A stretch of DNA of 38,287 nt, from the IMG/VR virus record IMGVR_UViG_3300047462_000737, positions 1 to 38,287 of that record. The stretch is one strand, 5' to 3'. Position 1 is the first letter of the stretch. Every line of letters starts with the position of its first letter. Below the pieces are notes generated by a model. That model made no database searches and was not told the DNA's origin. It was given only the letters and a program-made list of their open reading frames with translations. Source of the DNA: a virus. Positions 6,114-34,832 of the stretch are shown one piece after another. The translations under genes and the position numbers were made by a program.

Positions 6114-6122
6114 CTCAGGACC
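6114..6122 (-). promoter_or_regulatory. Start-associated motif, copy 1
   Basis: GGTCCTGAG on the - strand, directly after the TAA of the 6123-6689 gene and six bases (ACATCA) before the GTG at 6107. No classical GGAGG is present at the right distance. Confidence 0.7.
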
Positions 6123-6689
6123 TTATAACGATGGAGTTCGGCCATCCGGCCCCAGTCTCATCGACGCCGTGCCAGATCCCTGACCACCGGACTGGCCGTC
6201 ACAGCTTGTGGCACCGCTGCCGGTTGAAGGTAGCCACGCCGGACCCGCCACGCCGCCAGGGTTGACCATGGTCGGCACCTTCCCGCCATGAACGATAGGC
6301 GTGGATGCCGGACCTCCCGGATATTGCGAGTAACCACGGACATAAATCGGTGAGGCTGATCCTACCGTCTGCCGGAATGTCCGGGATGGTCCAAGGTGAA
6401 AGACGTGGGGCTGGTCAAAGGACGATGTGGTGGATGTCTCGATGTAATAGTTGACCGACTTGTGAACAGGTGCCGTCCCGTCCGATAGCTGGACATGGAC
6501 GATCCCATCAGCAGCGGCTACCTGGATGCCGGAGACGGGAGGCGGAGCAGAGACGGCCTGTCCGCTGGGATGCACTCCGGTGGCCGTGGATATGTTGGTC
6601 AGTGCATCCTGGACATCTGTCAGGCAGGCACCAAGCTGGGAATCCCGCTGGATAATGGTTTGAAGATGCTTGAGGATCGGCTTAGGCAT
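6123..6689 (-). CDS. Small virion protein with beta-sandwich domain (tail accessory)
   Basis: 188 aa. Residues 1-40 are helical (LKHLQTIIQRDSQLG, VQDALTNIS) and may form a short coiled coil. Residues about 48-130 have the strand pattern of a fibronectin-III-like fold, from PPPVSGIQV through NYYIETSTTSSF to PIYVRGYSQYPGGPASTP. The last 50 residues are Gly/Ser/Pro-rich and look disordered. No enzymatic motif is seen. It starts one base inside the end of the nozzle gene and lies between nozzle and GNAT-like genes, so it is probably a minor tail or decoration protein. A counterpart of the P22 tail needle is possible by position but is not supported by sequence. Confidence 0.5.
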   Translation of the reverse strand: MPKPILKHLQTIIQRDSQLGACLTDVQDALTNISTATGVHPSGQAVSAPPPVSGIQVAAADGIVHVQLSDGTAPVHKSVNYYIETSTTSSFDQPHVFHLGPSRTFRQTVGSASPIYVRGYSQYPGGPASTPIVHGGKVPTMVNPGGVAGPAWLPSTGSGATSCDGQSGGQGSGTASMRLGPDGRTPSL

Positions 6690-9600
6690 TAGACACGCCC
6701 CCCGACCGGCGTCAGTTGGTCCGCTGAGAGCGACATGGTGAGTTTTCGAAGCTGGAAGTAAGCATCGATGGACCCGGTGGCCGGGACAGCTTCAATACGT
6801 AACGCCGTGCGTTCACCGAGGACATTGGCCGGGAATTCCACGTCGTGCATCACCAGCGATGCAAGATCCTTCTGTCTCAGCGGTCGCCGTGGGTTATCCG
6901 TGCTGTCCACATATGGCGTAATCAGCATGGAGCCGACGCCCCTCGCCGATGCCGATACGTATTGAAGGAGGTGCCTGTGGCTGCCCAGATTGAACTGAAG
7001 TTCATCGTCAGAACCAACCATAAACGCGGTCACATAATAGGCAGGAATCGGCACCGTCGAATCATCATCGCTCAAGTAGTTCTTGTTCAGCACGTAGATT
7101 TGAGACTGAGTGCTCAGCCCGAAGGACATCTGGTCATCGGTTGTGGTGGTCAATATCTGGCCGCATAACGCCGGTAGCTGCCATGGACTCCATTTCCTGG
7201 AATTCTCTGTGGCGGATATCTTCCCGGCTACTGTCACATGGATAGGCGTCGGGAGGTCCGCTGACTGGCAGCTACGGAAGCTGCATGTGAGGACCTGATT
7301 GATGGACGTGGCTCCCGGCCCGAAGGGGATGCCGATATAGATCATGCGTTCTACCGGATCATGCCTGAGCCATATCAGCTTTGCTGCCGCCCAGTTGATC
7401 TGGTCCCAGGTATTCTTGATCTCGTTGCTTATGATGTCGTAATCAGTGCCGGTCAACAGATGGACGCCTGAACGGTTGGCTACGAAGTATCCTTCATCGC
7501 TGCCATCGGCTGCCCTTGGGCTGATGCATCCAACCTTGTTGGACACTTCGTTAATCTGCCAGCTTGAAGGCTCCGACCCGCTGTCCACCGTATAATACGT
7601 GGCCTTGTCGGTCGCAATAAAAAGCTGATCACGGAATTTCCACATGTTGCGGACTGGACTGTTTCCCGGAATTCTTAAGAGCCCGGTCACGCCGTCAAAG
7701 GCCGTGGGGTTGAATGCATAGGACGCCCTGATCTGAGTACCGACCACCGGCATATCATCCGGGATGATCTGGAGTTCACTGATTGAGACGCTAAACCCAG
7801 CGGGAAGGTAGAACTCATAGACCCGGATGATCGCTGATGGATCGATGGTGGCGGGCATCGTCGGGAATGTCGCCGTGACCCAGACACCCGACGTTGTGGC
7901 TTTTGTCAGATCATAGGACGACGAATAGACCGCGTTATTGGCTCCGGTGATGTCTATTATCAATTCGCTGGCCGTTGTGACCACAGCGGACACCCGGACG
8001 AATGCTCTCCAGCGGTATGTAGTCAATGGCTTCAGGATAGGGACGTTCAAGCTGTCCTGGTACGCCGACTGAGCGATAACGCCGATGGCGTTCTGTGACC
8101 CGTCCCCGGTGATCGTGTAGCTGTATTGGTTAGCCTGAGCCGCTGATTGCGTCCCGGTTCCATACGCCGTCCAGCCCGCTGGTGTGGAAGGGCTGAACTG
8201 AGCGGACATCGACATCCCCACGAAGTTCTGGACTTTGTTCCACTCTCCCCAGCAAAACAGCCTGTCGGCGTATTCAACCACGCCCTGACAAGGTGCCAGC
8301 GTCACTTGAGCAAAGAGATTGTTTCCGGGGATGTCGATGGCCGTAGCAGCGAGTAATGAAGCATCGGAGAAGTCAAACGTAGCTGACAAGGTGAAATTGT
8401 CAGGGATTCTTGTGGACGTGCCGATCAACGCCGGAGTCGATACGCCGCCTAATGTGCTTTGCGCTCCGATAATATCGGTCGGCAGATAAAAGAAGTTAGA
8501 TCCGCCAGCGGCGGTAAAGGCCACGCATCTGGCGACGACGTTAGGCGTCCCGATTGGCAAGTTGTACACGGTCACTTTTGTGCTACCGCTGCAATTAAAT
8601 TGAGTGAGCGGAGACGGAGCCGTCAGAGATCCATCGGCTAATTCGTAAAAGACGCACACCTTATGAACGCCTGGAGCCAGTTGGCCGCCGCATGACAAGG
8701 TCCCGCCTGTGCCGACATCGCCAGCATTCTCATACGCATCAAACTGGAAGGTGTAATCGTCTACGATTGCCTTTACAATCCACTGGCCGGGATTCACTAC
8801 GCTGTTCAGCGTGTCGTTGTAGCTGTTGTTATATTTGCTCTCGCTATTGCCTGATATCACAACGCCGTCATCCACTAACAGGCCGTGAGGCGTCGCCGTC
8901 ACACAGGTAGCGGTCACCGGTGCCACGGTTCCGCCTGTGCCAACGGCGAGGCCGGTGGTTGTAGCGGAGAAGGTGAAAGAGATTGGAGACGGTACGCTGG
9001 TGACTTTCTGAAGGCCGTTATACCCGGCGACAGTGAATCCGGCCAATAACGCCGTATCGCCGACGCCGAAGGGATGCGGACCCGGCGTCACCACCGTAAC
9101 CGTTGATCCCGATTCCGTGCATGTACACGTTCCCGCTGCCGCTGATGGAAGGAATGGCATCCCGATAGCTGAGCGTCCACCGGCTACGGGAGCGGTTCCC
9201 AATGCCCATGACAATTCCACGTAACACTGAGGACCCTGTGACCAGTTGGACCAACCGAGTTCCAGTGGATAGTTTCCCGCCGCTGAGAATGAGACGACAA
9301 TGGTGTCCCATGTCCTGGCTGAATCGGCGAGATGATTACGTCCGGCGATATAAGCGTTCCCGGCCAGGGAACTCGCCTCCGGCCCGACTCTTGGACCGCT
9401 GACATAAGTACATGTTCCTCCTCCAGTAGCAGCGGAGCCTATGAACAGATTCCATCCGTCATCGATCAGGGCGTACATAGTATAAGTGCCAGCGGTCGTC
9501 ACATGCAGGACAGTCTGGACATTGCAATCAAAACCATATCCGTCCGTGCTCAAACGGGCGGATTCTGGAAAGAACGTGTCCCCGGTCCAGTTGCCGGTCG

Positions 9601-11116
9601 GTCCTTCTTGCTGTTGGGACATCGGGGTCCGGCTGTGGACATCGCCGATGCCGGAGACCGGGAAACTGGGGATCAGTTGGTTAAACGTAAGGCTGGTGCC
9701 GCCGATGTACGGCGTGGGGTTGGTTTTTGTGCCTGTACCGCTATAGACTCCGGTTTGGTTCTCATAGAAATTGATGACCGTCGTCCCGATGCTTAACGCC
9801 GCTGCCGCTGGCAACACACCGAGCGGGGATGGCTGAGAGATCGACGCGATAGCGATATTGGCGGATTGTTCGGACACAACCACGGGCAATGCTGGACCAT
9901 CTTGCGTGAGTCTCGTTAGGGTGGTGCCGTCCCATATCGCGGGAGCACTTGCCCCGCCTGGGTCGGTCTGATTGAAGGACGCGAGATACTGCCGGGTGTC
10001 ATAGACAGCGGATTTGATGAGACTGCCGGAAGGGACAAAGGACGCGGGTCCGGCTGAGATCATTTCGACTGTTGTGGATGCGATGTTGGCCTGCTGATAC
10101 AGATTGCCGTCCGTGCCACACATCAATGTCGTCGGTGTCCCGTTCGGTAAGTCATAAGTGTCGGCGTACACCATCGGCGTCGGGAACGTCGGGACGGTGT
10201 CCACGATAGTCGTACCGTTAATCGTCCCGGTCAATGTCCCAGTTAACGCCGTTGTGCTGACCACCGGCGTATTCTGGACGCTGCAATCAAAGATCAGGCT
10301 ACTGGTTGGCGGGTTCCCTTCAATCGCTGCTTGATGATCGGCTAGCGTCGTCTGTCTCGACCACATATAAGTATCGGCGATGATTACGAGTTCCGGGCTG
10401 AAGTATCCGGGTCCAGGCGGGTTTGAAAAGTACGCCACGTTAGGCGTCCCAACCTGGAAGCTGGGATCGCTCACCATGGCCGCTGTGTTGATCGGTAATG
10501 AATATGGCAAGCTGCCAAACGTCGTCACTTCGTCGCCGGTGCCAACATACAGCGTAATCGTCATAGCGGAGACATTGCGTGAAATCCCGATGTACGTCCA
10601 TTGGTTGGCCGGGATGTGAGTGGCGAAGATGACCGGGGACATGGACACGATTCCAGCGGACGTGCCGCTATCGTGCGAATAAAGAATATTGAACCCGCTG
10701 GCACCATCGGATGTCACGGTTACGAGATAAGCGAAATGAGCGCCGGGGTTAGAGTCACCGAGGCACCCGAATGAAAGGATGCATCCGTTGGCACCGGTGG
10801 GAAACTTTACCCAGACGCCGCAGGACCAATCGGTGTTTATGTAGAGACTGGCAAGATTGCCGAAATTGACAAAGTCAAACTGGTGATAACCGCCGACGAC
10901 GCAGGAGAACTGACGCCCGTAGTCGAATGCGGCACCGGGAGAGAATAAACGCTGGAGACCGGGCCGTGTCGCTACGGAACCTTGTTCAAAAGCGACATCG
11001 CTGTTCTCCGGGCTGACGCCCATCGGCAAGTCAACCGGGTCAGCGTCGCTGACGAGGGAGCCGAAAAGGTCAATCGAGATATTGGCTGTAGCTTGGGATT
11101 CGTTTGCGTTGGGCAT
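6689..11116 (-). CDS. Giant tail nozzle protein (T7 gp12 / P22 gp10-like) with LamG and PA14-like inserts
   Basis: 1475 aa, far longer than usual nozzle proteins (about 470-800 aa). It starts with a short segment ending in RPGLQRLFSPG, typical of nozzle N-termini. Residues about 80-270 read as a concanavalin/LamG jelly roll (WSCGVWVKF, ANQWTYIGISRN, IADTYMWSRQT). Residues about 450-650 resemble a PA14-like carbohydrate domain (TYTMYALIDDGWNLFIG, YPLELGWSNWSQGPQCYVEL). Ig-like repeats follow (about 670-830). A second sugar-binding-like sandwich (about 980-1150) and the nozzle propeller blades (VRNMWKFRDQLFIATD, EGYFVANRSGVHLLTGTDYD, IIS, about 1190 onward) complete it. The protein would close the portal channel and may also contact host glycans (inference). 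Its ATG lies directly after the stop of the connector-candidate gene, so coupling is likely. Confidence 0.75.
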   Translation of the reverse strand: MPNANESQATANISIDLFGSLVSDADPVDLPMGVSPENSDVAFEQGSVATRPGLQRLFSPGAAFDYGRQFSCVVGGYHQFDFVNFGNLASLYINTDWSCGVWVKFPTGANGCILSFGCLGDSNPGAHFAYLVTVTSDGASGFNILYSHDSGTSAGIVSMSPVIFATHIPANQWTYIGISRNVSAMTITLYVGTGDEVTTFGSLPYSLPINTAAMVSDPSFQVGTPNVAYFSNPPGPGYFSPELVIIADTYMWSRQTTLADHQAAIEGNPPTSSLIFDCSVQNTPVVSTTALTGTLTGTINGTTIVDTVPTFPTPMVYADTYDLPNGTPTTLMCGTDGNLYQQANIASTTVEMISAGPASFVPSGSLIKSAVYDTRQYLASFNQTDPGGASAPAIWDGTTLTRLTQDGPALPVVVSEQSANIAIASISQPSPLGVLPAAAALSIGTTVINFYENQTGVYSGTGTKTNPTPYIGGTSLTFNQLIPSFPVSGIGDVHSRTPMSQQQEGPTGNWTGDTFFPESARLSTDGYGFDCNVQTVLHVTTAGTYTMYALIDDGWNLFIGSAATGGGTCTYVSGPRVGPEASSLAGNAYIAGRNHLADSARTWDTIVVSFSAAGNYPLELGWSNWSQGPQCYVELSWALGTAPVAGGRSAIGMPFLPSAAAGTCTCTESGSTVTVVTPGPHPFGVGDTALLAGFTVAGYNGLQKVTSVPSPISFTFSATTTGLAVGTGGTVAPVTATCVTATPHGLLVDDGVVISGNSESKYNNSYNDTLNSVVNPGQWIVKAIVDDYTFQFDAYENAGDVGTGGTLSCGGQLAPGVHKVCVFYELADGSLTAPSPLTQFNCSGSTKVTVYNLPIGTPNVVARCVAFTAAGGSNFFYLPTDIIGAQSTLGGVSTPALIGTSTRIPDNFTLSATFDFSDASLLAATAIDIPGNNLFAQVTLAPCQGVVEYADRLFCWGEWNKVQNFVGMSMSAQFSPSTPAGWTAYGTGTQSAAQANQYSYTITGDGSQNAIGVIAQSAYQDSLNVPILKPLTTYRWRAFVRVSAVVTTASELIIDITGANNAVYSSSYDLTKATTSGVWVTATFPTMPATIDPSAIIRVYEFYLPAGFSVSISELQIIPDDMPVVGTQIRASYAFNPTAFDGVTGLLRIPGNSPVRNMWKFRDQLFIATDKATYYTVDSGSEPSSWQINEVSNKVGCISPRAADGSDEGYFVANRSGVHLLTGTDYDIISNEIKNTWDQINWAAAKLIWLRHDPVERMIYIGIPFGPGATSINQVLTCSFRSCQSADLPTPIHVTVAGKISATENSRKWSPWQLPALCGQILTTTTDDQMSFGLSTQSQIYVLNKNYLSDDDSTVPIPAYYVTAFMVGSDDELQFNLGSHRHLLQYVSASARGVGSMLITPYVDSTDNPRRPLRQKDLASLVMHDVEFPANVLGERTALRIEAVPATGSIDAYFQLRKLTMSLSADQLTPVGGRV

Positions 11117-11911
11117 TTATGCCACCAAGGGGGAAGTTCCCCCGCTTCCCATGAATACGGATCGTCCAAAGCGTCCAGAGCCGTATGGACGACGGCGGTA
11201 TGTTTGCCGCTGCTTACGCATGTCATCGCGGTTGGCCATGCGTTCCAGCGAGGCTTGAGCCTTTGCTTCGAATGCCGCTGCTAGTGCGGACCCGCGAGTT
11301 TCGGCGAACCGGGCAGCGGTCATGTAGGACAGAGCATCGGCTACCCGCATGATCATGATGGGAGATGTGGGGCCGCTGATAGCGGGTGCATAAGTCAGAT
11401 AGCGGATGGTGAGATCGACGGCCTGAGAAGCCACCGGAAGATAAAGGGCGTCCTGCCGCCAGTCCCATGTACGGTGGAATGAGTTACCCGCGTAAAAAGG
11501 CTTGCCGTCTGCCTGGGGCTTCATCTGGAGATAACGGCCATTCATCCCAGCGGGACGTTCGCCGATAATCAAAGGCTGAAGTAGATCAGTAGGTAAGGCC
11601 GGGGTTGCGGTAGTTACGCCGTCTTGAGTGAATCCGCTGAAAGTGATCTGACATTCAGAAGCGTAGTCGATCATCCGGGACGCGGGCACCGCTGGTATCA
11701 CGGCTTCTTTGGTGTAGGTGCTGACGCCCATGTCCATGAGGATGTCCTGGCATGCTGAATAGGCGGAGTCCATCAGGACGAAGGTGTATGGCTGATCGTC
11801 GGCGAAGAGGTCGCCGGTTAAAGTGCCGTCCTGGAGATCGTTCAGGATGGCCCGCGTTTTAATTGCGATGTCTTCCGCTACAAGGTATGGGCCACTGTCC
11901 AAGACAGGCAT
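11117..11911 (-). CDS. Head-tail connector / adaptor candidate (T7 gp11, P22 gp4-like position)
   Basis: 264 aa. It opens with a helical segment (YLVAEDIAIKTRAILNDLQDG), followed by mixed alpha/beta sequence and a long C-terminal helix (ADALSYMTAARFAETRGSAL and onward). It ends in a basic, Gly-rich tail (RRRPYGSGRFGRS). This arrangement and its place just before the nozzle gene fit the ring adaptor that joins portal and nozzle in short-tailed phages. The call is from position and general pattern; I see no diagnostic motif. The ATG has GGGAG about eight bases upstream. A GGTCCTGAG copy lies 33 bases upstream, not next to a start. Confidence 0.6.
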   Translation of the reverse strand: MPVLDSGPYLVAEDIAIKTRAILNDLQDGTLTGDLFADDQPYTFVLMDSAYSACQDILMDMGVSTYTKEAVIPAVPASRMIDYASECQITFSGFTQDGVTTATPALPTDLLQPLIIGERPAGMNGRYLQMKPQADGKPFYAGNSFHRTWDWRQDALYLPVASQAVDLTIRYLTYAPAISGPTSPIMIMRVADALSYMTAARFAETRGSALAAAFEAKAQASLERMANRDDMRKQRQTYRRRPYGSGRFGRSVFMGSGGTSPLVA

Positions 11912-11944
11912 GGTGAGTTCTCCCGGCCATGGGTGGCCTGAACT

Positions 11945-11953
11945 CTCAGGACC
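11945..11953 (-). promoter_or_regulatory. Start-associated-type motif, copy 2 (not next to a start)
   Basis: GGTCCTGAG on the - strand, 11 bases after the stop of the 11965-12720 gene and 33 bases before the ATG at 11911. That ATG has its own GGGAG ribosome site, so this copy lacks an obvious partner start. Confidence 0.5.
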
Positions 11954-11964
11954 TTGTTACAGGC

Positions 11965-12720
11965 TTAGGAACGGGCTTTACTGGCGGGTTTCTCCGTTGG
12001 TGACTCAGCCGGGGGAACATAACCCTCTTGCCCTGATTCCCATTTCTGACGATCAAGAATAGATCCACAGCTATTACATTTGGCAGCGGCGGGATTGACC
12101 TTGGCAAAACAGAAACGGCAGTCGGTCATCTGGACGGGAGTAACGTCCCATTGGCGATACTGGCCGAGGTAGGAGGCCGCTTTGCGGTGGATGCTTGATA
12201 GCTGGTTGCGTTCGGTTTGGGTGCCGTTGAAAAGGATGTCGCCTTGTTGGAGGAACTTCTGCATGGTGGCGGTGAGTCTCTTCTTCGCTTCCGTCAGTTC
12301 GGTGGCGGTTGGTTTGTCCCCGGCACTGATAAAGACTCCCCAGTTCCTAAGATCATTTTCCGGGACCCCTTCGGACTCGCCAGTGATGTCTTTGGCTACG
12401 TCCCGGCCATCCCAATAATTAAGGGCCAGTTCTCCCTCGCCTTTGTCATAAAATTCAAAAACGATGGATTCAACAATAAGCGGTTTAGAAACCGTGGCCC
12501 AGTCAGCGTGATTAGCGGACCCGTTGTCACTGCAAGCCGGGATGACAAACATCCCGTGCGGCGATATCTGCCGGCGCCATTCAACCGGGTACACGTTCCA
12601 GATGTAGACTTTGGGCCGTGCGTCCCTCTCTTTCAGAAGGATCTCTGGTACTTCGGCCTTCTTACGGCGATTGAGGCCGCTGACGCTGTTAAACGCTTGT
12701 GATGCTGAGATAGCTGGCAT
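11965..12720 (-). CDS. Unknown protein with C-terminal zinc ribbon, capsid-region
   Basis: 251 aa. No family recognised for residues 1-195, which contain a beta-rich part (VYIWNVYPVEWRRQISPHGM, VESIVFEFYDKGEGELALNY) and helices with Gln/Lys/Thr (about 135-175). Near the C-terminus, MTDCRFCF and AKCNSCGS form a CxxC-x10-CxxC zinc ribbon (C201, C204, C215, C218), followed by a Pro/Lys/Ser-rich tail. It lies four bases from the preceding gene and among head genes, so it may be a minor structural or assembly protein, but the zinc ribbon would also suit nucleic-acid contact. The ATG has AGGTG eight bases upstream. Confidence 0.55.
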   Translation of the reverse strand: MPAISASQAFNSVSGLNRRKKAEVPEILLKERDARPKVYIWNVYPVEWRRQISPHGMFVIPACSDNGSANHADWATVSKPLIVESIVFEFYDKGEGELALNYWDGRDVAKDITGESEGVPENDLRNWGVFISAGDKPTATELTEAKKRLTATMQKFLQQGDILFNGTQTERNQLSSIHRKAASYLGQYRQWDVTPVQMTDCRFCFAKVNPAAAKCNSCGSILDRQKWESGQEGYVPPAESPTEKPASKARS

Positions 12721-12723
12721 TGA

Positions 12724-13377
12724 TTACACCTGTTCGAATGAATTCTTACCGACTTTGCGGATGTTGGCCGGGAGATCAGATATCGTCCGATCCATGCGGA
12801 TCTTGTCGATATCCGCCGTATTCGTAGCACCGCCATAGCCGATGGTCGGGCCGTAATGCAGCGGCATCGCCTCATCAAATTCGTCGGATATCCGCTGATG
12901 GTGGGCCTTCTTCTGGGCTTGCATGCGATCTTTGATCGCTATCCGTTTGTCGCTGAGCGAATAGAGATTACCGCGTTCCACGTTGATTACGATGGCACGG
13001 ACCAACGCCGGGACGGGCTGCTGGTAGGTGTCGTTTATATGGAAGAGATGGACCGTTTCGTAGTCGCCGCGATGAGGGAATGGGCCGCAGGAGAGATAAC
13101 CCCACGCGTCACGGTTCTGAATGTCCCACATGGCGGGAGACCCATAGAGATAGGGAGGACACCATTTTTCAAGAACGAATGCCTGTTCGGTGTAGCGGGC
13201 GATGGGCCGATATTCATAGCGGGCGACATCGGCCCAATAACCGCCGACGATCTCTTTACGGGATGGACCCCATATGAGGCGATAACGCGGGCCGCCGTAT
13301 GGGTTGCTGCCGAATTCGGCTAACAGCCGATCCGCCCAGGGAGGTGCTGGCCGGGTATGTTCTTTGAGAAGTCTCAC
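12724..13377 (-). CDS. Unknown conserved-type phage protein downstream of capsid gene
   Basis: 217 aa. I recognise no catalytic domain. It has an aromatic-rich, strand-like first half (RYRLIWGPSRKEIVGGYWAD, YEYRPIARYTEQAFVLEKWC) and a helical, charged second half (KDRMQAQKKAHHQRISDEFDEA). It starts with GTG at 13377, five bases after GGTCCTGAG (13383-13391), where TGAGG could also serve as a weak ribosome site. Its stop is three bases from the start of the zinc-ribbon gene, so the two are probably co-translated. Position between the capsid terminator and the connector suggests a head-completion or minor virion role (inference). Confidence 0.55.
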   Translation of the reverse strand: MRLLKEHTRPAPPWADRLLAEFGSNPYGGPRYRLIWGPSRKEIVGGYWADVARYEYRPIARYTEQAFVLEKWCPPYLYGSPAMWDIQNRDAWGYLSCGPFPHRGDYETVHLFHINDTYQQPVPALVRAIVINVERGNLYSLSDKRIAIKDRMQAQKKAHHQRISDEFDEAMPLHYGPTIGYGGATNTADIDKIRMDRTISDLPANIRKVGKNSFEQV

Positions 13378-13382
13378 AAAGC

Positions 13383-13391
13383 CTCAGGACC
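13383..13391 (-). promoter_or_regulatory. Start-associated motif, copy 3
   Basis: GGTCCTGAG on the - strand, five bases (GCTTT) before the GTG at 13377. It lies 25 bases downstream of the capsid terminator hairpin. Confidence 0.7.
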
Positions 13392-13416
13392 GTGCGGAAG
13401 AGGCCATATAGACGCG

Positions 13417-13448
13417 AAAAGGGCCTCCCCGGTTGAGGAGGCCCTTTT
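13417..13448 (-). terminator. Strong bidirectional intrinsic terminator after the capsid gene
   Basis: Perfect 12-base stem AAAAGGGCCTCC / GGAGGCCCTTTT around an 8-base loop, with the T run built into the stem on both strands. It lies 20 bases after the capsid stop. Partial termination here would give more capsid than tail mRNA (inference). Confidence 0.85.
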
Positions 13449-13468
13449 CTTCAGTTGTAGGTTGCCGA

Positions 13469-14707
13469 TTAGGAACCAGCGGTGACGGTTAAACCATCGA
13501 TGTAACCATTGGCCATCGGATTGTCTGCGTAGGTTTGCATACCACATGCCAGATACGCAAGCGTCGCAGATGCCACGCCGCCTGATGGACCCACCTGCGG
13601 AAACATCGTCTGGCCCCCAAACTCAAGCAAATCAACCGGAGCAACTTCGCTACGGCCCCATGTCTTGAGGTTCAGAGCATCAACACGTCCATACTGAGCA
13701 TATACGCTCTCGATTATTTTTCGGCCCGCCATCGTGACGGGTGCCGATTCTGAAAGCATATCCATCGTGGAATCTCGCTTGCTTTCCACAAGGTCAATTC
13801 TTTGTACGGTGGTGCTGAGTTGTTCCCATGCATAGGACTGGTCAGGTCCGAGGTGGAAAACGAGCCCTTCTCCAGCGGCGGTACCCAATGTCCTGCGAAT
13901 CTGGTTGATTAACAGGCGTGGCATACCAACGCTTAGTGGAGCGTTGCCGCCCGATACGTGGTTGCTGCGAAGGATGGGATACGTGGTGCGGGACAGTCCC
14001 AGGTACGTCCCGGTTGTGGCCGCTGAGTTCACATACTCCAAACCAAACAAAGCGCTTGCAGCGGTGCCGGGAGCACCCGCAAGAATCAACAGATCGTTTG
14101 CGGCGGTGCCGGTCGGTACTGCTGCTACTGTGATCGTGTGGGAGTTTGCAGACACGCCTGTGACGGTGGCGTTTCCACGCGACGTACCACCTAAAGCCGG
14201 AAATACTTGAATTACCTGGCCAACGGCGAACCTATTGGCGTTGTCATTTAAGGTGATCGCATTGCCCGAGACGCTGGCGACGCTGCCTAATGTGCCGCTG
14301 CCGTCTGTGTTAAGTAACGACTCCAAACCGACCAACAGTGCATCCGTGGCATCCGTGATCATGGCCTTGGTTGCATTAGCAACAGCTTTCGTATCGCTAT
14401 TCGTGGCGTATTCTGCGGCCTTTGAAATCGACATCGCTTTCACGTAATAGTTCGGCGTCAGAGTTGCTACGTCGTAGCTGGCTGATGTTCCAATTCCAAG
14501 GTCGTCGCCGTCCATGGTTTGCATGGAAATGCCGCCGCCGAGACTGGTCTTGATTGGCACACGGAGAGCACGGGATGAAACTACTTCAACACCGGCCTTT
14601 TCTTTTATGAGTGAGTACAGGCCATGGTCCTTCTGGAACCACAGCGGGATGTTTTTGCGGACCTTTTCAAGCTGTATTGCTACAACTGCCGCGTTCTGAG
14701 TTGGCAT
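13469..14707 (-). CDS. Major capsid protein
   Basis: 412 aa. Identified from size, position (terminase, portal, scaffold, then this gene), and sequence. It has a polar N-terminal arm with VAIQLEKVRKNIPLWFQKD, a strand-helix region (ALRVPIKTSLGGGISMQTMD) and a beta-rich insertion of about 80 residues (about 135-215, SGNAITLNDNANRFAVGQVI onward). A long spine-type helix and a C-terminal part with LLEFGGQTMFPQVGPSGG follow. It would form the icosahedral shell on the scaffold. The insertion could be a surface-exposed knob. The ATG has GAGG nine bases upstream. It is the only gene flanked by both a long structured leader and a strong terminator, which fits a highly expressed product. Confidence 0.87.
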   Translation of the reverse strand: MPTQNAAVVAIQLEKVRKNIPLWFQKDHGLYSLIKEKAGVEVVSSRALRVPIKTSLGGGISMQTMDGDDLGIGTSASYDVATLTPNYYVKAMSISKAAEYATNSDTKAVANATKAMITDATDALLVGLESLLNTDGSGTLGSVASVSGNAITLNDNANRFAVGQVIQVFPALGGTSRGNATVTGVSANSHTITVAAVPTGTAANDLLILAGAPGTAASALFGLEYVNSAATTGTYLGLSRTTYPILRSNHVSGGNAPLSVGMPRLLINQIRRTLGTAAGEGLVFHLGPDQSYAWEQLSTTVQRIDLVESKRDSTMDMLSESAPVTMAGRKIIESVYAQYGRVDALNLKTWGRSEVAPVDLLEFGGQTMFPQVGPSGGVASATLAYLACGMQTYADNPMANGYIDGLTVTAGS

Positions 14708-14767
14708 AATGAACCTCGTGAAATTCGTTGATCGAATCGCACGCTATCCACCGTGGCCAGATAACTC

Positions 14768-14848
14768 AGTCTTCAGCCGTGAGGCTCAGGGTGTACTCTC
14801 CCTGAAGTAACCGACGACGGATCAAGCGTTACTGATCGTCTGAAGACT
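14768..14848 (-). promoter_or_regulatory. Structured leader between scaffold and capsid genes
   Basis: The 158-base gap 14708-14865 holds no ORF. Two 9-base arms, AGTCTTCAG (14768-14776) and CTGAAGACT (14840-14848), can pair over 63 bases. Inside lies a second hairpin, TCAGGG (14786-14791) with CCCTGA (14800-14805). The outer arm overlaps a GGTCCTGAG copy. This may be an mRNA leader structure for capsid expression; no known riboswitch pattern is recognised. Confidence 0.45.
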
Positions 14849-14855
14849 CAGGACC
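14847..14855 (-). promoter_or_regulatory. Start-associated-type motif, copy 4 (not next to a start)
   Basis: GGTCCTGAG on the - strand, ten bases after the scaffold stop and 139 bases before the capsid ATG. No ATG, GTG or TTG follows at 4-7 bases. It overlaps the outer arm of the capsid-leader inverted repeat. Confidence 0.5.
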
Positions 14856-14865
14856 ATTGACGGGA

Positions 14866-16101
14866 TTAATCGGCCCATGTGACAAGCTTCCCGGATCGAA
14901 GGTAAGCTTTAGAATCCATGATCATGTCCCCGGAACGCTTGTAATCTATTTCGGACGGTGATGGTGGTTTGGATAGTCTCATCACGCCGTTGGAGGTTGG
15001 CGTGCCTTTGGCCGTTGCCGTGGCCGTCGTTGGCGTAGTCCCATTGGCCGATCCAAATGCCCGCATCACACGCTTGGTTGCGTCAGGGAGATGCTTCGTT
15101 ATCCTGGCCGTAAAGAACTTCGTAATTCTTGCCTTATCTCCAGACTTCAGTACCGCATCCCGTTGCTGAGCGAACGTAGGATCAGCGTTCATCAGCTTCG
15201 TCAATTCGCCGCCGACATTGGCCTCAATGATCGAATAGGATTCTTTGTCCAGCTTGCGGCCTTTGAGGTAAGGCTCCAGGCTGTCTTTAATGCCGCGCTC
15301 GATGTGCTGGCCGATGCCAGCATTGACCTCCTGCATGAAGAGTTCTGATTTGCTCTTTTCGAAGTCGGCCTTTTCCCTCAGAAACTTTTCACGCTCCGGG
15401 TCCACTTTGGGTTTAGGGGCTTCGGCTGCTAGCCGGTCAATGCCGCCAACGATGGAAGAAATCTTCTTCAGCAGGGCGGATGCTTCTGGATTGTCTTTGA
15501 GCATCGCTGATAGCAGCGAGAGATCCTGTGATACGCCCGCCTGGGACAGCGTGGAGGCCATGACCTTCGCTACCTCGTGCGTCCATCCGCTTTCATCCGC
15601 TTTGCGGAATTCGTCGAAAAGGGCGGGTGCCAGCTTTGCGAAGCCTTCTTTATTGGCGGGTTTGGCCAGGAACTTGTCCAGGACGGCCTTGTCCCCGGAT
15701 TCAAACATCCGATCTATTTCGGCGAACTCCGCCTGTGTAGCGTTTATGCCGTCGAAACCGCCCAACGCCGCAAGCTGGTCCAGCGTCTCCGCTGCCTTTG
15801 CCGGTGTTTCAAAATGCTTGCGGAATTCTTGGGCTTGAAAATACATGGCCCGTAGCTCTTTGTGTTCCTTAAACACTTCCCGGAGATGTTTGGGGATTGT
15901 ACGGCCATCATTAGGCGTCGGCTCCGGCTTATCGGTGGCGTCAGCGTCAACATCGGCCTGGTCTGAGTTCTCCGCTGCGGACTGGTCCCCGGCCTCGTCG
16001 CCGTTGCCGGTCGCTTCATCCGTGGAGGTGTCTTCAATACTTGTATCGATGTCGGGAGTGTCGGCGGGAGCAACTTCCACGCCCAATGCTGCTAGATCCA
16101 T
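14866..16101 (-). CDS. Scaffolding protein
   Basis: 411 aa. The N-terminal 75 residues are very acidic and low in complexity (Asp, Glu, Thr, Ala). Residues 75-330 are almost wholly helical and charged, with heptad-like segments (REVFKEHKELRAMYFQAQEF, EREKFLREKADFEKSKSELF). The C-terminus is Ser/Thr/Pro-rich with basic residues (SEIDYKRSGDMIMDSKAYLR). This is the usual make-up of phage scaffolds, which co-assemble with capsid protein and leave or are degraded before DNA packaging. Its position between portal and capsid (T7 gene 9) agrees. ATG at 16101 lies five bases after a GTCCTGAG motif copy (16107-16115); no GGAGG is present. Confidence 0.82.
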   Translation of the reverse strand: MDLAALGVEVAPADTPDIDTSIEDTSTDEATGNGDEAGDQSAAENSDQADVDADATDKPEPTPNDGRTIPKHLREVFKEHKELRAMYFQAQEFRKHFETPAKAAETLDQLAALGGFDGINATQAEFAEIDRMFESGDKAVLDKFLAKPANKEGFAKLAPALFDEFRKADESGWTHEVAKVMASTLSQAGVSQDLSLLSAMLKDNPEASALLKKISSIVGGIDRLAAEAPKPKVDPEREKFLREKADFEKSKSELFMQEVNAGIGQHIERGIKDSLEPYLKGRKLDKESYSIIEANVGGELTKLMNADPTFAQQRDAVLKSGDKARITKFFTARITKHLPDATKRVMRAFGSANGTTPTTATATAKGTPTSNGVMRLSKPPSPSEIDYKRSGDMIMDSKAYLRSGKLVTWAD

Positions 16102-16106
16102 ATGGG

Positions 16107-16115
16107 CTCAGGACT
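16107..16115 (-). promoter_or_regulatory. Start-associated motif, copy 5
   Basis: AGTCCTGAG on the - strand (first base differs from the consensus), five bases (CCCAT) before the ATG of the scaffold gene. The spacer is identical to the one at 34833-34837 on the other strand. Confidence 0.65.
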
Positions 16116-16149
16116 GCTGTAAATGGCGTGATGTCGCCATAAAAGGAGA

Positions 16150-16178
16150 CCCCCGCATCGGATCACCCAATGCGGGGG
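16150..16178 (-). terminator. Hairpin after the portal gene, probable terminator or attenuator
   Basis: Nine-base GC-rich stem CCCCCGCAT / ATGCGGGGG with an 11-base loop, in the gap 16116-16264 between portal stop and scaffold start. On the - strand it is followed by TCTCCTTTTA, an imperfect T tail, so read-through into scaffold and capsid is likely. Confidence 0.6.
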
Positions 16179-16264
16179 GTATGCGAAACACACGCAAGGA
16201 ATGCAGCTATGGCGAACTGCATACTTACGGTTAGATAGTCGGATTATTGAGGAAAAGTTCTCAC

Positions 16265-18574: not shown

Positions 18575-18580
18575 CTGGCC

Positions 18581-20783: not shown

Positions 20784-20786
20784 AGA

Positions 20787-20795
20787 CTCAGGACC
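20787..20795 (-). promoter_or_regulatory. Start-associated motif, copy 7
   Basis: GGTCCTGAG on the - strand before the tandem TTG starts of the large terminase; spacing is three bases to the first TTG and six to the second. Confidence 0.7.
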
Positions 20796-20817
20796 CGCTT
20801 TTTAGGGACAAAAGAGA

Positions 20818-21363: not shown

Positions 21364-21366
21364 GGT

Positions 21367-21735: not shown

Positions 21736-21747
21736 AGAAATCCTTTC

Positions 21748-25900: not shown

Positions 25901-26511
25901 ATCGAACTCCAGGCTCCTCGGAAGTTGAAGCCTTGACCTTGTGAACCGGCTGCACCTTGAGGCCCTGTGGCCCCAATTGCTCCGGCTGGACCCGTGGGTC
26001 CGGTTATTCCGTTGGTCCCCGCTGGTCCTGTGTTGCCGACGCTGGCGAGTAGAGACCAGTAGCTAGACGAACTGGATGGGGTCTGATTGGTGGAGGAGGC
26101 TATCGCAATCCATGAGCTACCGCCATATGACACAACGTCATTTGGCGTGTATGCCTGAGTGGAAGACCATGCGGATAACCAGGTGAACGGCGTGAGAAGA
26201 CCGCTGGAGCCGAGGCTCAGATCTTGAGCGATGTACGGGTGAGTAAGTGCCGATCCATACGCCTGGATTGTGTAGGTACCGGCAGCGGCATAGAAAGAGA
26301 TTGTGCCCGTTCCGTCTGGCGTGAACGGGTTTGATAACGGCGTGATTCCCGCTGGGTCTTGGTAGATGGAAGCTAGAGGAGATCCGGGATACAATGACAA
26401 TCCGGTGGCGGGTATGCCTATGGCCGCTTGCACGAGGACGGCGACGTTGACGTTGACTATGGGCCGTCCGAATGAGTCGGTGAATGACTCGCTGAACTTG
26501 TAGAGGGACAT
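22924..26511 (-). CDS. Collagen-like tail fibre with five CBM-like modules
   Basis: 1195 aa. Residues 1-105 are a tail-attachment-type domain ([31 protein letters not shown]). Long Gly-x-y tracts, mostly GPT and GAT triplets, run at about 158-190, 246-510, 676-715 and 760-815 and should form collagen-like triple helices. Between them lie five copies of a 48-residue module resembling the CBM5/12 chitin-binding fold (for example [20 protein letters not shown] ending SYWSLLA), at about 109, 195, 517, 572 and 625. A C-terminal domain of about 380 residues ends with the [13 protein letters not shown] module shared with the next gene. The protein is probably a long trimeric host-recognition fibre. 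Repeat-rich coding DNA here makes large mirror ORFs on the + strand, which are not genes. The ATG follows the previous stop directly. Confidence 0.85.
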
Positions 26512-26774: not shown

Positions 26775-26783
26775 CTCAGGACC
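26775..26783 (-). promoter_or_regulatory. Start-associated motif, copy 8
   Basis: GGTCCTGAG on the - strand, five bases (TCCAT) before the GTG at 26769. The ATG inside the spacer is followed by TGA and cannot be the start. Confidence 0.7.
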
Positions 26784-26901: not shown

Positions 26902-27354
26902 TTAGTTGAGAACCCGACGCCAGCGAGTCTTTGGCGTGATGGGATGTTTATCTATCCGCTTGCGATTGGCCTGTTTCGGGCGGTCCCATGTTCCCCCGCC
27001 AGCGGGACCTTCGTTGATCCAACCGGCAGCACGGAGCGTGGTGCCAGGTTCGGTGTCCAGGATGTAGGTGATGATTGACTTGTATCCCATGGCCTTTGCT
27101 ACCTGGGCGGCTGCTGAATACAGATAGCTACAGGTGTTGGCGGTGCCATCGGTGCATAGGCGGGAGACTTCAGCGGTGAGGCCGTCATCCAGCATGCGGG
27201 CCGCTGGTCTGCCAACGATGACGACGTCAACGAGGTTATCGGCGTCGTCATAGGCACCGAGGCTGAACTTGTGGGTCTGGACCTTCTGGTGATGCCGATG
27301 TAACGCCGTTACAAAGGCGTTGGATTCACGAAGGTGAAGGGGTTTCCGGGTCAC
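26902..27354 (-). CDS. Mom-like acetyltransferase, XF1762 family (predicted DNA modification)
   Basis: 150 aa. The pattern LRESNAFVTALHRHHQKVQT, KFSLGAYDDADNLVDVVIVG, RPAARMLDDG, EVSRLCTDGTANTCSYLYSA, then AKAMGYKSIITYILDTEPGT and LRAAGW is the signature of the XF1762/Mom-like GNAT group. Known relative: phage Mu Mom, which converts adenine in DNA to a carbamoylmethyl form and shields the genome from restriction. Activity here is inferred. It directly follows a DNA methyltransferase gene (24-base gap), so the two may act on the same DNA. The GTG start at 27354 is six bases after a TGTCCTGAG motif copy; an alternative ribosome site is not seen. The basic C-terminus (RKRIDKHPITPKTRWRR) may contact DNA. 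Confidence 0.8.
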   Translation of the reverse strand: MTRKPLHLRESNAFVTALHRHHQKVQTHKFSLGAYDDADNLVDVVIVGRPAARMLDDGLTAEVSRLCTDGTANTCSYLYSAAAQVAKAMGYKSIITYILDTEPGTTLRAAGWINEGPAGGGTWDRPKQANRKRIDKHPITPKTRWRRVLN

Positions 27355-27360
27355 TACAGG

Positions 27361-27369
27361 CTCAGGACA
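27361..27369 (-). promoter_or_regulatory. Start-associated motif, copy 9
   Basis: TGTCCTGAG on the - strand (first base differs), six bases (CCTGTA) before the GTG at 27354 of the Mom-like gene. Confidence 0.65.
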
Positions 27370-27378
27370 TCGGGATCA

Positions 27379-28032
27379 TTACGGTTTGCCCGTGGATTTG
27401 GCGAATGCGATCTCAAGGCGGGAAGCCGCTATATCGCAGAGGCGTTCGTCTATCTCGATGCCGATGGCATGGCGTCCGCTGTGGACTGCGGCGATGAGGG
27501 TGCTTCCGCTTCCAGCGAAGGGGTCCAGGATCAAGTCGCCGGGTTTGTTGGCCTTGTGGATCAGGTATTCGAGCAGGGCGATGGGTTTGGGGGTCGGGCA
27601 GAAACGGTAGTCAGCTTTGACCGCTGCGAAGCGGAGAATGGCGGAGTCACGGGACCCGGACAACTTGCCAGTGTTGCGGACTTGGATAAGTTCCCAGGTG
27701 GGCTTCCAACAGGTGTTAGGATCTCCGCCTCCACCGACGTGGCCGCCTTTGGACCAGACTAGGTGCTGACGCCATCTACCGGGCCATGGACGCATCGGTG
27801 AGGCAAACGCGATGGTGGGGGCCTTCTGGTAGTGATCGAGGACCAGAGTGCCGATCTCCTGATCCTGATCGCCAGCTACGTGGTAGCTGGAGTCTGATCG
27901 TCCATGATTGGTTAGCTTGATTCCGTAAGGTGGGTCGGTAATCACGATGCTGGGGGCCGGGAGAGTGGGAAGAAGGTCGAGGATGTCGGCGTTGTAAATG
28001 GTGATGCCGGATCGGGAATAGTATGGGGTCAC
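27379..28032 (-). CDS. DNA methyltransferase, beta class (N6-adenine or N4-cytosine)
   Basis: 217 aa. Catalytic motif DPPYGIK is at 33-39 and the AdoMet-binding motif DPFAGSGST at 170-178. This order (catalytic before AdoMet site) marks the beta class of amino-methyltransferases, which modify exocyclic amino groups in a short target. About 130 residues between them form the target-recognition region, including LVWSKGGHVG and GKLSGSRDSAILRF. No restriction partner is nearby, so it is a solitary phage enzyme, probably for evading host restriction or for control of expression (inference). Start is GTG at 28032 with no clear ribosome site. The sequence just upstream (ATCCAGCCCATAGC) only partly resembles the start motif. 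Confidence 0.88.
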   Translation of the reverse strand: MTPYYSRSGITIYNADILDLLPTLPAPSIVITDPPYGIKLTNHGRSDSSYHVAGDQDQEIGTLVLDHYQKAPTIAFASPMRPWPGRWRQHLVWSKGGHVGGGGDPNTCWKPTWELIQVRNTGKLSGSRDSAILRFAAVKADYRFCPTPKPIALLEYLIHKANKPGDLILDPFAGSGSTLIAAVHSGRHAIGIEIDERLCDIAASRLEIAFAKSTGKP

Positions 28033-28063: not shown

Positions 28064-28816
28064 TTACTGGGACTCGCGGTGCCAGCGGCGTAACCGTGCT
28101 AACGCGGATGCGATCACCTGCGGGAGTCTGGCCTCGGAGACGAAGGAACGCTTAGACAGCGTCCGCATGTCCCGGATTGGCCTGGTATCCGCTGATCCTA
28201 GGCCGAGGTGCAAGGTCAGTACAAGTGCCTGCTCGGTGGATAGTGCTGCCAGTGCTTTGGTGACGTATTCGCTGGATAACATCGTCTCCAGGGAACCGTC
28301 GTCCTCGGCCTCCAGCGTGGCTAGAAGGCCGGTGTCAGCGGCGTCCGGGGTCTCAGCATCCCAGTCGGGATCAGCGGCTAGCAGCGGATCATTGACCCTG
28401 CGGTATCTGGCGTAGCTGGTGCATAGTTGCCGCTGGATGGTGGTCTTGACGTATAGCCGGTGGTGACGATGTTGTGGCTTGACCTTGAGAAGCTTTATCC
28501 GGCAGTCTTGGGCCGCGTCCTCGGCGTCCTCGCGACTGGCACCGTAGGTGCTTCGGAATCTCTCATTGACGGTCAGAAGCCATCCGTCGTACTCAGCGAT
28601 GAGTTCGGCGTCTGTTAGCGGGATGTCTGGCGGTTCGGTGGACGCGTCCTGCGGACGCGAAGGAACAGAACGGCGTCGTAGGTCCAGGCTGGTGGGGGGA
28701 ATCGCGTGGGCGTCGCCGGGACGCCGGGAATGATGCCTCTGGGCCATCGGTGGACGGATGCTGGCGGTTATTGTGGATCTCGGATTGGTAGCTGGCAGAT
28801 AGAAGCCTCCTACCAT
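28064..28816 (-). CDS. Sigma-factor-like protein
   Basis: Up to 250 aa. Residues about 70-150 resemble sigma region 2 (AELIAEYDGWLLTVNERF, REDAEDAAQDCRIKLLK, HHRLYVKTTIQRQL). Residues about 190-250 resemble region 4 (TKALAALSTEQALVLTLHLG, SEARLPQVIASALARLRRW). The linker between is acidic. The size and two-domain plan fit an ECF-like sigma factor that would redirect host RNA polymerase, perhaps to late genes (inference). The first 65 residues are Arg/Pro-rich and unlike sigma factors, so the start is uncertain: ATG at 28816 or 28747 are both possible and neither has a good ribosome site. A 21-bp tandem repeat lies just upstream. Another helix-turn-helix regulator is the main alternative. Confidence 0.6.
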   Translation of the reverse strand: MVGGFYLPATNPRSTITASIRPPMAQRHHSRRPGDAHAIPPTSLDLRRRSVPSRPQDASTEPPDIPLTDAELIAEYDGWLLTVNERFRSTYGASREDAEDAAQDCRIKLLKVKPQHRHHRLYVKTTIQRQLCTSYARYRRVNDPLLAADPDWDAETPDAADTGLLATLEAEDDGSLETMLSSEYVTKALAALSTEQALVLTLHLGLGSADTRPIRDMRTLSKRSFVSEARLPQVIASALARLRRWHRESQ

Positions 28817-28820
28817 GCGG

Positions 28821-28862
28821 TGCCGTAGTCGAGTTATCGGGTGCCGTAGTCGAGTTATCGGG
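28821..28862 (+). repeat. 21-bp perfect tandem repeat, two copies
   Basis: Two adjacent identical 21-base units beginning TGCCGTAGTCGAG and ending TTATCGGG, at 28821-28841 and 28842-28862. They lie between the sigma-like gene (-) and the serine-recombinase promoter (+), so they may be paired binding sites for a regulator or recombinase. Confidence 0.75.
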
Positions 28863-28982: not shown

Positions 28983-29621
28983 ATGGCCAGTTACATCGCA
29001 TACTATAGAGTCTCGACCGATAAACAAGGGGCCAGCGGCCTCGGATTGGAGGCTCAGAGATCGGCTGTTACTGGTTTTGTGCGGGCCGGGGAGTTAGTTG
29101 GCGAGTTCACGGAAGTCGAGTCCGGGAAACGGCACACAAACCGGCCAATGCTGGCCGCTGCTATGGCTGAGTGCCGCAAGCGTAAAGCCGTGCTGGTGAT
29201 CGCCAAACTAGACCGATTGGCCAGGAACGTCCATTTCATTTCTGGGCTCATGGAATCGGGAGTCGAGTTCACCGCTGTGGACATGCCACAGGCATCGAGA
29301 CTCACGATTCATATTCTTGCTGCCGTGGCCGAACACGAACGCGAGATGATCAGCCAGAGGACAAAGGCAGCGTTAGCCGCTGCTAAGGCGAGAGGCACTG
29401 TCTTAGGCAATCCGAGATTAGCGGAGGCCAGGATCAACGCCGTAGCAGCTACCAGAGCCACTACATCACCAGATGTGGTCCGGCTGATGGTGGAGGCCAG
29501 GAACCAAGGGGCCACGCTACGGGATATATGCAAGAAACTCAATGGCCTCGGCCTGAAAACGTCTCGCGGGTCTGTCTGGTACACCGGAACCGTGGCGTCT
29601 GAACTGAAGCGGGTGGCCTGA
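28983..29621 (+). CDS. Serine recombinase (resolvase/invertase family)
   Basis: 212 aa. YRVSTDKQ near the N-terminus gives the nucleophile Ser11. LVIAKLDRLARN, with the conserved Arg pair, and HILAAVAEHEREMISQRTKA match the resolvase catalytic core and the long E helix. The C-terminal 50 residues carry a small HTH (LRDICKKLNGLGLKTSRGSV). It cuts and rejoins DNA through a phosphoserine link, as resolvases, invertases or small integrases do. The phage also has a tyrosine integrase, so this enzyme more likely resolves dimers, inverts a segment, or regulates. It is alone on the + strand between - strand blocks with its own promoter and terminator, as expected for a moron acquired separately. No invertible segment is recognised nearby. 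Confidence 0.92.
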   Translation: MASYIAYYRVSTDKQGASGLGLEAQRSAVTGFVRAGELVGEFTEVESGKRHTNRPMLAAAMAECRKRKAVLVIAKLDRLARNVHFISGLMESGVEFTAVDMPQASRLTIHILAAVAEHEREMISQRTKAALAAAKARGTVLGNPRLAEARINAVAATRATTSPDVVRLMVEARNQGATLRDICKKLNGLGLKTSRGSVWYTGTVASELKRVA

Positions 29622-33842: not shown

Positions 33843-33869
33843 ATTTCCCCCTTGCGTGCTTTCGCGGTC

Positions 33870-34295: not shown

Positions 34296-34370
34296 CTATT
34301 TTGTGGTCGGTTGGACTTGCTTCAAGGCTGATGTTTATTTCATCCGCCATAAGCGTTGTTCAAAAGCGGG

Positions 34371-34754
34371 TTAAGGAATCTCGGGCACCCCGAAAATAAA
34401 GTTGGTGCCTGCCGTCCATTCGTCATAAACGGTTAAATCCGCCTCATGCTGGCGTAGCTGGCGGATCAGCATATCCAGCCGGTCCACGTTCATGGAAGAG
34501 ACGAAATATTTGATCCGGTTATCCGGCGTTACTGTGATCCGTGGCCGCCCGAAGTTGTGGACGCCATGATGCCGTTTGCCGAATACCGGATCGAAGTCGA
34601 AATAGAAAACGGTGTTGTCGTAGCCGAGGTCTGTCCGCTTCATGCTTCCGCACAATGCCGCCAGGGATGTCGCCGCCGCTAATGCTTCATGGCGTTCGGT
34701 TGAGGTTTCGGTGTTTAGCCGTTGATTGTTAAGAGTGGTTAAATTTTGTGCCAT
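34371..34754 (-). CDS. Unknown small protein at the start of the replication module
   Basis: 127 aa. It starts MAQNLTTLNNQRLNTETSTE, has a helical stretch with Ala (HEALAAATSLAALCGSMKRT), then a strand-rich middle (NTVFYFDFDPVFGKRHHGVH, PRITVTPDNRIKYFVSSMNV) and a closing helix (RLDMLIRQLRQHEADLTVYD). No motif that I recognise. It is the first gene of the - strand replication series and divergent from the AP2-domain gene, so the 83 bases between them (34755-34837) should contain promoters for both. No strong ribosome site precedes the ATG. Confidence 0.5.
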   Translation of the reverse strand: MAQNLTTLNNQRLNTETSTERHEALAAATSLAALCGSMKRTDLGYDNTVFYFDFDPVFGKRHHGVHNFGRPRITVTPDNRIKYFVSSMNVDRLDMLIRQLRQHEADLTVYDEWTAGTNFIFGVPEIP

Positions 34755-34823
34755 ACCGAGGATTCGGTAGTCGCAAACTTTGTTTACTGTGTGTTTTGGG
34801 CGGGCGGAATGGCTTCTCGAAGC

Positions 34824-34832
34824 GGTCCTGAG
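34824..34832 (+). promoter_or_regulatory. Start-associated motif, copy 10 (+ strand)
   Basis: GGTCCTGAG on the + strand, five bases (CCCAT) before the ATG at 34838. It is the only + strand copy linked to a start and precedes a + strand gene, so the motif follows gene direction. Confidence 0.75.

Follow-up and report, generated by a model that had tools for sequence, protein, structure and literature searches.

The window analysed here, the whole 38,287-base virus record IMGVR_UViG_3300047462_000737, encodes an integrase, a terminase, a portal protein, a major head protein (major capsid protein, MCP) and a Mom-like protein, and has a weak ATPase match. It also carries ten copies of the nine-base element GGTCCTGAG or a variant of it, and a gene for a divergent sigma factor. 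An initial annotation had noticed the ten copies, and we located all of them, all intergenic and all oriented with the gene. The exact element begins (first base) at 6122, 11953, 13391, 14855, 19097, 20795 and 26783 on the minus strand and at 34824 on the plus strand. Two minus-strand copies, at 16115 (AGTCCTGAG) and 27369 (TGTCCTGAG), have one mismatch, in both cases at base 1. The elements, with the proposed transcription start (+1) discussed below, and the associated genes are as follows.

20787–20795, minus strand: candidate late promoter element GGTCCTGAG; proposed +1 at 20781; start of the terminase large subunit (TerL) at TTG 20783 or 20780
19089–19097, minus strand: candidate late promoter element, putatively leadered; first start GTG 19039, or an ATG (121 amino acids) 137 nucleotides (nt) past +1
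16107–16115, minus strand: candidate late promoter element AGTCCTGAG; proposed +1 at the A of ATG 16101, putative leaderless type
14866–16101, minus strand: gene called scaffold from its position only, downstream of the 16115 element
14847–14855, minus strand: candidate late promoter element of the major capsid gene; MCP ATG 14707, predicted leader ∼134 nt
13383–13391, minus strand: candidate late promoter element; proposed +1 at the G of GTG 13377, putative leaderless type
11945–11953, minus strand: candidate late promoter element, putatively leadered; ATG 11911, 28 nt past +1
6114–6122, minus strand: candidate late promoter element; proposed +1 at an A one base ahead of GTG 6107
26775–26783, minus strand: candidate late promoter element; proposed +1 at the G of GTG 26769 (85-amino-acid gene)
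27361–27369, minus strand: candidate late promoter element TGTCCTGAG; proposed +1 at an A one base ahead of GTG 27354 of the Mom-like gene
34824–34832, plus strand: candidate late promoter element, the sole plus-strand copy; proposed +1 at the A of ATG 34838
28064–28816, minus strand: divergent sigma factor gene, a 250-amino-acid open reading frame (ORF), the proposed reader of the ten elements

The gene at ATG 34838 encodes a 267-amino-acid protein, whose AP2 match is weak and below the cut-off.

The element is far more frequent than expected by chance. Eight exact 9-mers are present, whereas 500 dinucleotide shuffles gave 0.41 on average and never more than 3. With one mismatch allowed at any position, 23 matches were found versus 10.1 expected, so that the 13 further loose matches are about at chance level and mean little. 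We also scored the window with an 18-position weight matrix made from the ten sites themselves. The ten sites score 20.4–24.2 bits and all lie outside called ORFs, while the next ten places score at most 10.1 bits and all lie inside ORFs, on either strand. As the matrix was derived from the sites that it scores, it is this clean gap that matters, rather than the absolute score.

The conservation extends beyond the nine bases. Downstream of the final GAG all ten sites read N-C-Y-D-Y-R-K, a pattern absent from the initial annotation, with the C kept at nine of the ten sites and the last pyrimidine and the following purine at all ten. At the three sites with no adjacent start codon, the pyrimidine/purine step reads TTCAG, TTCAG and CGTAG, and hence the pattern is not produced by start codons alone. 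The conserved step suggests a transcription start. Counting the purine, the sixth base after the block, as +1 puts the block at −14 to −6. Upstream of the block we found a weak preference for T at −43/−41, which is not common to the related phages, and a search for a −35 element in six phages yielded none.

As the initial annotation had observed, seven copies stand at start codons and five of these are not ATG (two ATG, four GTG, one TTG). At these seven sites the start codon begins on the +1 purine or one base later; in the terminase gene, an additional TTG begins two bases ahead of the purine. At the other three sites, the start lies 28 nt (11911), 134 nt (MCP) and 44–137 nt (the gene after 19097) past +1. 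The seven abutting starts indeed have weak Shine-Dalgarno sites (−1.9 to −5.0 kcal/mol), in agreement with the reported lack of a clear GGAGG. The claim that most other genes have one is overstated: 17 of the 33 window genes reach −5 or lower at their best candidate start, which is nearer half. The leadered starts have stronger Shine-Dalgarno sites, −7.4 kcal/mol at ATG 11911 and −6.6 kcal/mol at the MCP ATG, and for the gene after 19097 the value is −3.2 at the GTG or −8.6 at the downstream ATG. The latter gene lies in the terminase–portal interval (18581–19247, minus strand), where the ORFs 18828–19247 and 18581–19039 overlap; given this overlap and the strong Shine-Dalgarno site at the 121-amino-acid start in the second ORF, the annotation is uncertain there.

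This geometry restricts how the block could act. As a −35 element it would place the RNA start within the coding sequence of the seven genes. As a signal in RNA it would require a promoter farther up, and none that is conserved is visible. Sigma-70-type sites are not enriched in 5000–22000 (8 found vs 9.8 expected). Two terminator-like hairpins bear on the same point.

16150–16178, minus strand: terminator-like hairpin between the portal gene and the 16115 element; found in both scans
13415–13450, minus strand: terminator-like hairpin between the MCP gene and the 13391 element; absent from the second scan

Hairpins with T-rich tails were counted, without a control, upstream of 42 sites in the window and five relatives, and occur at nine of them. 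Two of the nine (G004 38818 and G008 23420; the G numbers of the compared records are given below) are short and distant; the other seven are those at window 16115 and 13391, G001 36816 and 36361, G002 12127, G004 16858 and G008 21690. A further hairpin at G003 7241, seen by eye, has no T tail. At G001 36361 the T run ends two bases ahead of the motif, which places the beginning of transcription at or after the motif, provided that the terminator works.

A candidate reader of the element is encoded by the ORF 28064–28816. Fifteen records were compared, the window (G000) and 14 related ones (G001–G014), and seven of them, including the window, have a Sigma70_r2 match in Pfam, one of which is above the family cut-off. 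The window match falls in this ORF. A protein profile of the six sigma proteins from the relatives recovers the same ORF with E=1.9e-11, the next window ORF having 0.24, and finds nothing better than E 3 in the other eight records. When the seven-row profile is compared with the PDB, the best 60 of 91 rows are all named sigma factors, with FliA as the best (4.8e-9); two sigma rows among these 60 carry a fused segment of the beta subunit. Structure prediction gives a helical protein, for which the best 50 of 276 Foldseek rows all represent sigma factors or transcription complexes, with E 1.1e-3 at best. With VIA-align, the C-terminal helices match sigma region 4 with Z up to 8.6 (3vfz_A, 62 residues, root-mean-square deviation 1.7). 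Sigma70_r4 has below-cut-off matches in five of the six relatives and no match in the window protein. Further scans with the profiles A3 and A4 led back to their six source records alone, and the seven records of 50 matched by profile A2 are likewise its own source records and thus add no new sigma factor. Directly upstream of the sigma ATG 28816, at 28820–28861 on the minus strand, we noticed by eye a two-copy 21-bp tandem direct repeat, which could be an operator for the sigma gene.

The relatives of this phage are distant. The portal protein has 184 relatives in IMG/VR, the best 80 of which are 29–37% identical to it, none being close. In GTDB contigs, 38 portal relatives were found, and all 38 titles name Acidobacteria, Acidobacteriota, Terriglobia, Acidiferrales or Acidiferrum, which speaks of the host of the relatives, not of the window. 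A megablast search of 8000–32000 against 50,697 phage records gave no match; the terminase, the capsid protein and the window sigma, used as single queries, found no relative among viral contigs; and no phage record matched the portal in tblastn. The terminase has 305 phage-record matches, all below 60% identity. The window 9-mer occurs in two copies in 1.77 Mb of relatives.

The relatives have motifs of their own. Early k-mer screens flagged many weak words, and those in homologous gaps were taken further. An upstream motif search at width 18 found the motifs of the window and G002 and was swamped in G001 by Shine-Dalgarno plus ATG; with an information cut-off, the G001 motif was found among the matches listed. 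The sites were counted with degenerate patterns fitted to the known sites, weaker copies (such as G003 22902) and all G006 sites being excluded:

G001: motif GTTTARATAATCYMGA, 7 sites
G002: motif RGTTTTATARAGTGTC, 7 sites
G003: motif SCGTTCTATTC, 5 sites
G004: motif SCGTTCTATTY, 8 sites, with the divergent pair 38818 and 38799 both counted
G008: motif RGTTTATCTAGWGYAG, 5 sites

These motifs differ in sequence and recur in the same gaps. All six phages, the window included, have a site between TerL and portal, 151–967 nt past TerL; between MCP and gp12724, with the first site 62–124 nt past the MCP gene; before gp5712; and between portal and MCP. In the gp11965–gp11117 gap sites are present in the window, G003 and G004. 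Overall, 27 of the 32 sites in the five relatives fall in gaps of the window type, if the gap before MCP, in genomes with a relocated scaffold gene, and that before gp5712, in genomes with no gp6123 found, are treated as the same. The five others are G002 14574 and 24697 and G004 2828, 38818 and 38799, the last of which precedes the relocated scaffold gene. Since intergenic space is concentrated in some of these gaps, the positional agreement is partly expected. The MCP leaders would measure 134, 113, 108 and 116 nt in G000–G003, with Shine-Dalgarno values of −6.6 to −7.4.

We compared sigma-bearing and sigma-less records by a blind motif search in five or six homologous gaps per record, with 20 shuffles each. 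Among the sigma-bearing records z was 6.0 in the window, 5.6 in G001, 9.8 in G002, 10.6 in G004 and 7.7 in G008, while the eight sigma-less records had no significant motif (z from −1.9 to 1.3). A significant motif is thus present in five of the seven sigma-bearing and none of the eight sigma-less records (Fisher p = 0.007), or in six of seven if G003 is included for carrying the G004 motif in five exact copies (p = 0.0014); both values are optimistic, as the records are related. G006 has one CCGTTATATTC behind a hairpin and, by eye, similar words at two homologous gaps.

The portal, the sigma factor and the motif divide the six relatives in the same way. Portal proteins are 56–76% identical within G001/G002/G008 and 70–82% within G003/G004/G006, and the sigma factors split likewise (37–51% and 38–42%, respectively); between the groups, identity is 49–54% for the portal and 21–25% for sigma. 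Motifs of the GTTTA type occur in G001, G002 and G008, and those of the GTTCTATTC type in G003 and G004. Sigma diverges faster than the portal (76% for portal and 51% for sigma between G001 and G008), and the element differs too, being GTTTARATAATCYMGA in G001, RGTTTATCTAGWGYAG in G008 and GGTCCTGAG in the window. This pattern suggests joint descent and divergence of the sigma factor and the motif, not separate acquisition.

We consider it most likely that GGTCCTGAG-N-C-Y-D-Y-R is a single-element late promoter read by the sigma factor of the phage itself. Its function as a promoter is well supported, and the ORF 28064–28816 is likely to be the reader. The phage sigma would join the core of the host RNA polymerase and read the block at about −14 to −6 with no −35 element, RNA then starting at the purine six bases past GAG. 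At seven genes the start codon would lie on +1 or one base past it, giving leaderless mRNAs; these would account for the weak Shine-Dalgarno sites as well as for the apparent tie between a DNA signal and start codons. For the MCP gene and the gene at 11911, the same promoter would stand farther upstream and yield a leader with a Shine-Dalgarno site. Behind the portal gene and again behind the MCP gene, a putative terminator precedes a candidate promoter, which would split the late region into separate transcription units.

Among the three options of the initial annotation were a translation signal, likened to the start-associated sequences of cluster K phages, and a site bound by a phage protein that would control several genes together. 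The latter fits our results in its general form, the evidence now pointing to a promoter element read by sigma. The former, which would act in the mRNA 5–6 bases before the start, is very unlikely. It accounts for the start-codon spacing of seven of the ten copies and for the five starts that are not ATG, but three of the ten stand ahead of leaders, with no start adjacent, and two of these leaders, those of MCP and 11911, have a clear Shine-Dalgarno site of their own. Hairpins shortly upstream of 13391, 16115 and some counterparts in the relatives leave little room for another promoter, the pyrimidine/purine step holds far from start codons too, and in G001–G003 the counterpart motif stands 108–116 nt ahead of the MCP start. 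Likeness to the cluster K sequences goes as far as a short asymmetric repeat, mostly in one orientation, a few bases before starts. In the parts of PMC3203893 used here, those sequences are given as GGGATAGGAGCCC with an AGGAG Shine-Dalgarno core, ATG at 80 of 93 sites, a location in the non-structural half of the genome and a start codon within a few bases of nearly every copy. By that description the present element differs from them, as it has no GGGATAGGAGCCC/AGGAG core, serves mostly late structural genes, has leadered copies and is near a start in seven of ten cases.

An asymmetric operator or stoperator, through which a phage repressor would silence late transcription in the lysogen, is more improbable still. 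Stoperators of cluster A phages are asymmetric and bound by the phage repressor. As far as the relevant part of PMC3203893 describes them, they are 13-bp transcription-regulating sites, which the intergenic, oriented copies of the window resemble, and the phage has an integrase and an HTH_17 protein. However, neither a pyrimidine/purine step at fixed distance nor similar MCP leaders in four phages would be expected of operators, and the significance of the motif tracks the sigma gene. It is improbable, if slightly less so than the translation signal, that the copies are promoters of some other specificity, read by an alternative sigma of the host, with a phage activator or by an unrecognised phage RNA polymerase, with the phage sigma a bystander. 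Sigma homology is indeed no proof of the promoter that is read. The PF00940 family of single-subunit RNA polymerases was found in none of the 15 records, a search that also missed 14 of 14 controls and is uninformative. Against this explanation, the motifs differ among phages whose 38 genome relatives are all titled Acidobacteriota, the motif type tracks the sigma group (though the portal groups coincide with it), and none of the eight sigma-less records has a significant motif in the gaps.

Several points weigh against a late promoter read by the phage sigma, a proposal drawn from sequence and models. The Pfam match of the window protein is below the cut-off, its identity to the sigmas of the relatives is 15–24%, its structure model is middling (pLDDT 70, pTM 0.41), no Foldseek E reaches 0.001, and the VIA-align Z of 8.6 may reflect a common helical arrangement only. 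Region 4 is recognisable in five of the six relatives, and yet no −35 element is seen. The case for pairing sigma with the motif comes from their joint occurrence in 15 related, non-independent records, and as the portal and sigma groups coincide, motif similarity is not attributable to sigma alone. Two sigma-bearing records, G003 (z 0.7) and G006 (z 1.3), fail the gap test, and by eye G006 holds only weaker GTTATATT-like words; the sigma-less records may be incomplete, with G013 and G014 covered in part. G004 and G008 have no start of a 75-amino-acid ORF within 220 nt past the site before MCP, and the hairpin count lacks a control. A precedent also calls for caution: for phage 7-11, the motif predicted from sequence (PMC4331800) differs from the promoter mapped later (PMC8948821), according to the portions of these papers used here.

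Some other features of the window and its relatives are worth recording. A serine recombinase (28983–29621, plus strand) and a tyrosine integrase (37094–38287, plus strand) are present in one phage. The plus-strand ORF 400–618 encodes an Acb2/Tad1 hairpin-domain protein (PF24729, E 1.2e-16), likely an anti-defence protein, flanked by a Cpn10-like ORF (1–399) and a phage lysozyme (619–1128). At 26902–28032 on the minus strand, the Mom-like DNA modification protein adjoins a match to an N6/N4 DNA methyltransferase, and the Mom-like gene has its own element. The minus-strand ORF 22924–26511 (1195 amino acids) has matches to collagen repeats and to the carbohydrate-binding CBM_5_12 and is likely a tail or fibre protein. 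L108, an Acidobacteriota contig with a related portal, has intergenic arrays of the CTAGYCACT type on both strands, a different kind of motif. In L075, another portal relative, the word AAACCCAAG has 10 of its 11 one-mismatch copies in intergenic positions.

Late promoters of T4 consist of a single −10 box, TATAAATA, with no −35 element, and are read by the phage sigma gp55. The present element is like them in its single −10-type box, the lack of −35 and the phage sigma, and differs in that the TATAAATA box is not matched: here the block is the GC-rich GGTCCTGAG, and the sigma has a region-4-like domain. Phage sigma factors with late promoters of their own are a known kind, as in phiEco32 (gp36) and 7-11 (gp47). 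The gp36 promoter, in the sections of PMC8948821 that we draw on, is a single nine-base element, tAATGTAtA, with no −35 and a mapped start 6–8 bp downstream; gp36 is reported there to have no region 4 homology, which is given as the reason for the missing −35. The likeness to the present system is in the phage-encoded divergent protein of the sigma-70 family and in one conserved block with no −35, and the proposed start here, the sixth base past the block, is at a similar place. On the same account, the consensus and the phage group are different, and the present sigma family keeps a recognisable region 4. Here, moreover, start codons are fused to the promoter, in an Acidobacteriota-associated phage group with an integrase. 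By contrast, gp47 of 7-11, a sigma with region 4 homology, is described as using a bipartite promoter, GTAAtg-(16)-aCTA; the sites correspond to those of phiEco32 in position but not in sequence, and the authors argue for independent acquisition of the sigma genes (PMC8948821, in the same sections). The relatives of the window resemble this pair in promoter position versus sequence, and differ in that one two-way grouping holds for both portal and sigma.

Leaderless translation itself is not new, as leaderless genes are widespread in bacteria; the part of PMC3160421 used here describes a TANNNT box like the sigma-70 −10 at ∼12 bp before their starts. The likeness is in a promoter element just before the start, with a phage-specific block here in place of TANNNT. 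The word 'leaderless' does not occur in the main texts of PMC8948821 and PMC4331800. Our literature searches found no paper joining 'phage-encoded sigma factor' with 'leaderless'; the broader late-promoter combination gave a single paper, on mycobacteria, and the matches listed included none on the sigma factors of Acidobacteria phages. What may be unusual here is the Acidobacteriota-associated group, the joint divergence of sigma and promoter, the promoter fused to the start codon, and the lack of −35 despite a region-4-like domain.

We regard as evenly balanced the broader proposal that, in these phages, the sigma factor and its whole set of late promoters change together while the positions are kept, with promoters fused to start codons, leaderless mRNAs and a region-4-like sigma with no −35. 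The positions kept are those after TerL, after MCP, around portal and MCP, and before gp5712, with an element of 9–16 bp. The phages G001, G002, G003/G004, G008 and the window would then be natural sigma–promoter sets in which the position is kept and the sequence changed. They may open the co-evolution of a regulator with many sites to direct test, and offer candidate orthogonal sigma–promoter pairs. They also caution that a motif fixed at start codons is not necessarily a translation signal. The start-linked repeat thereby becomes a testable sigma–promoter pair in phages of a poorly cultured group.

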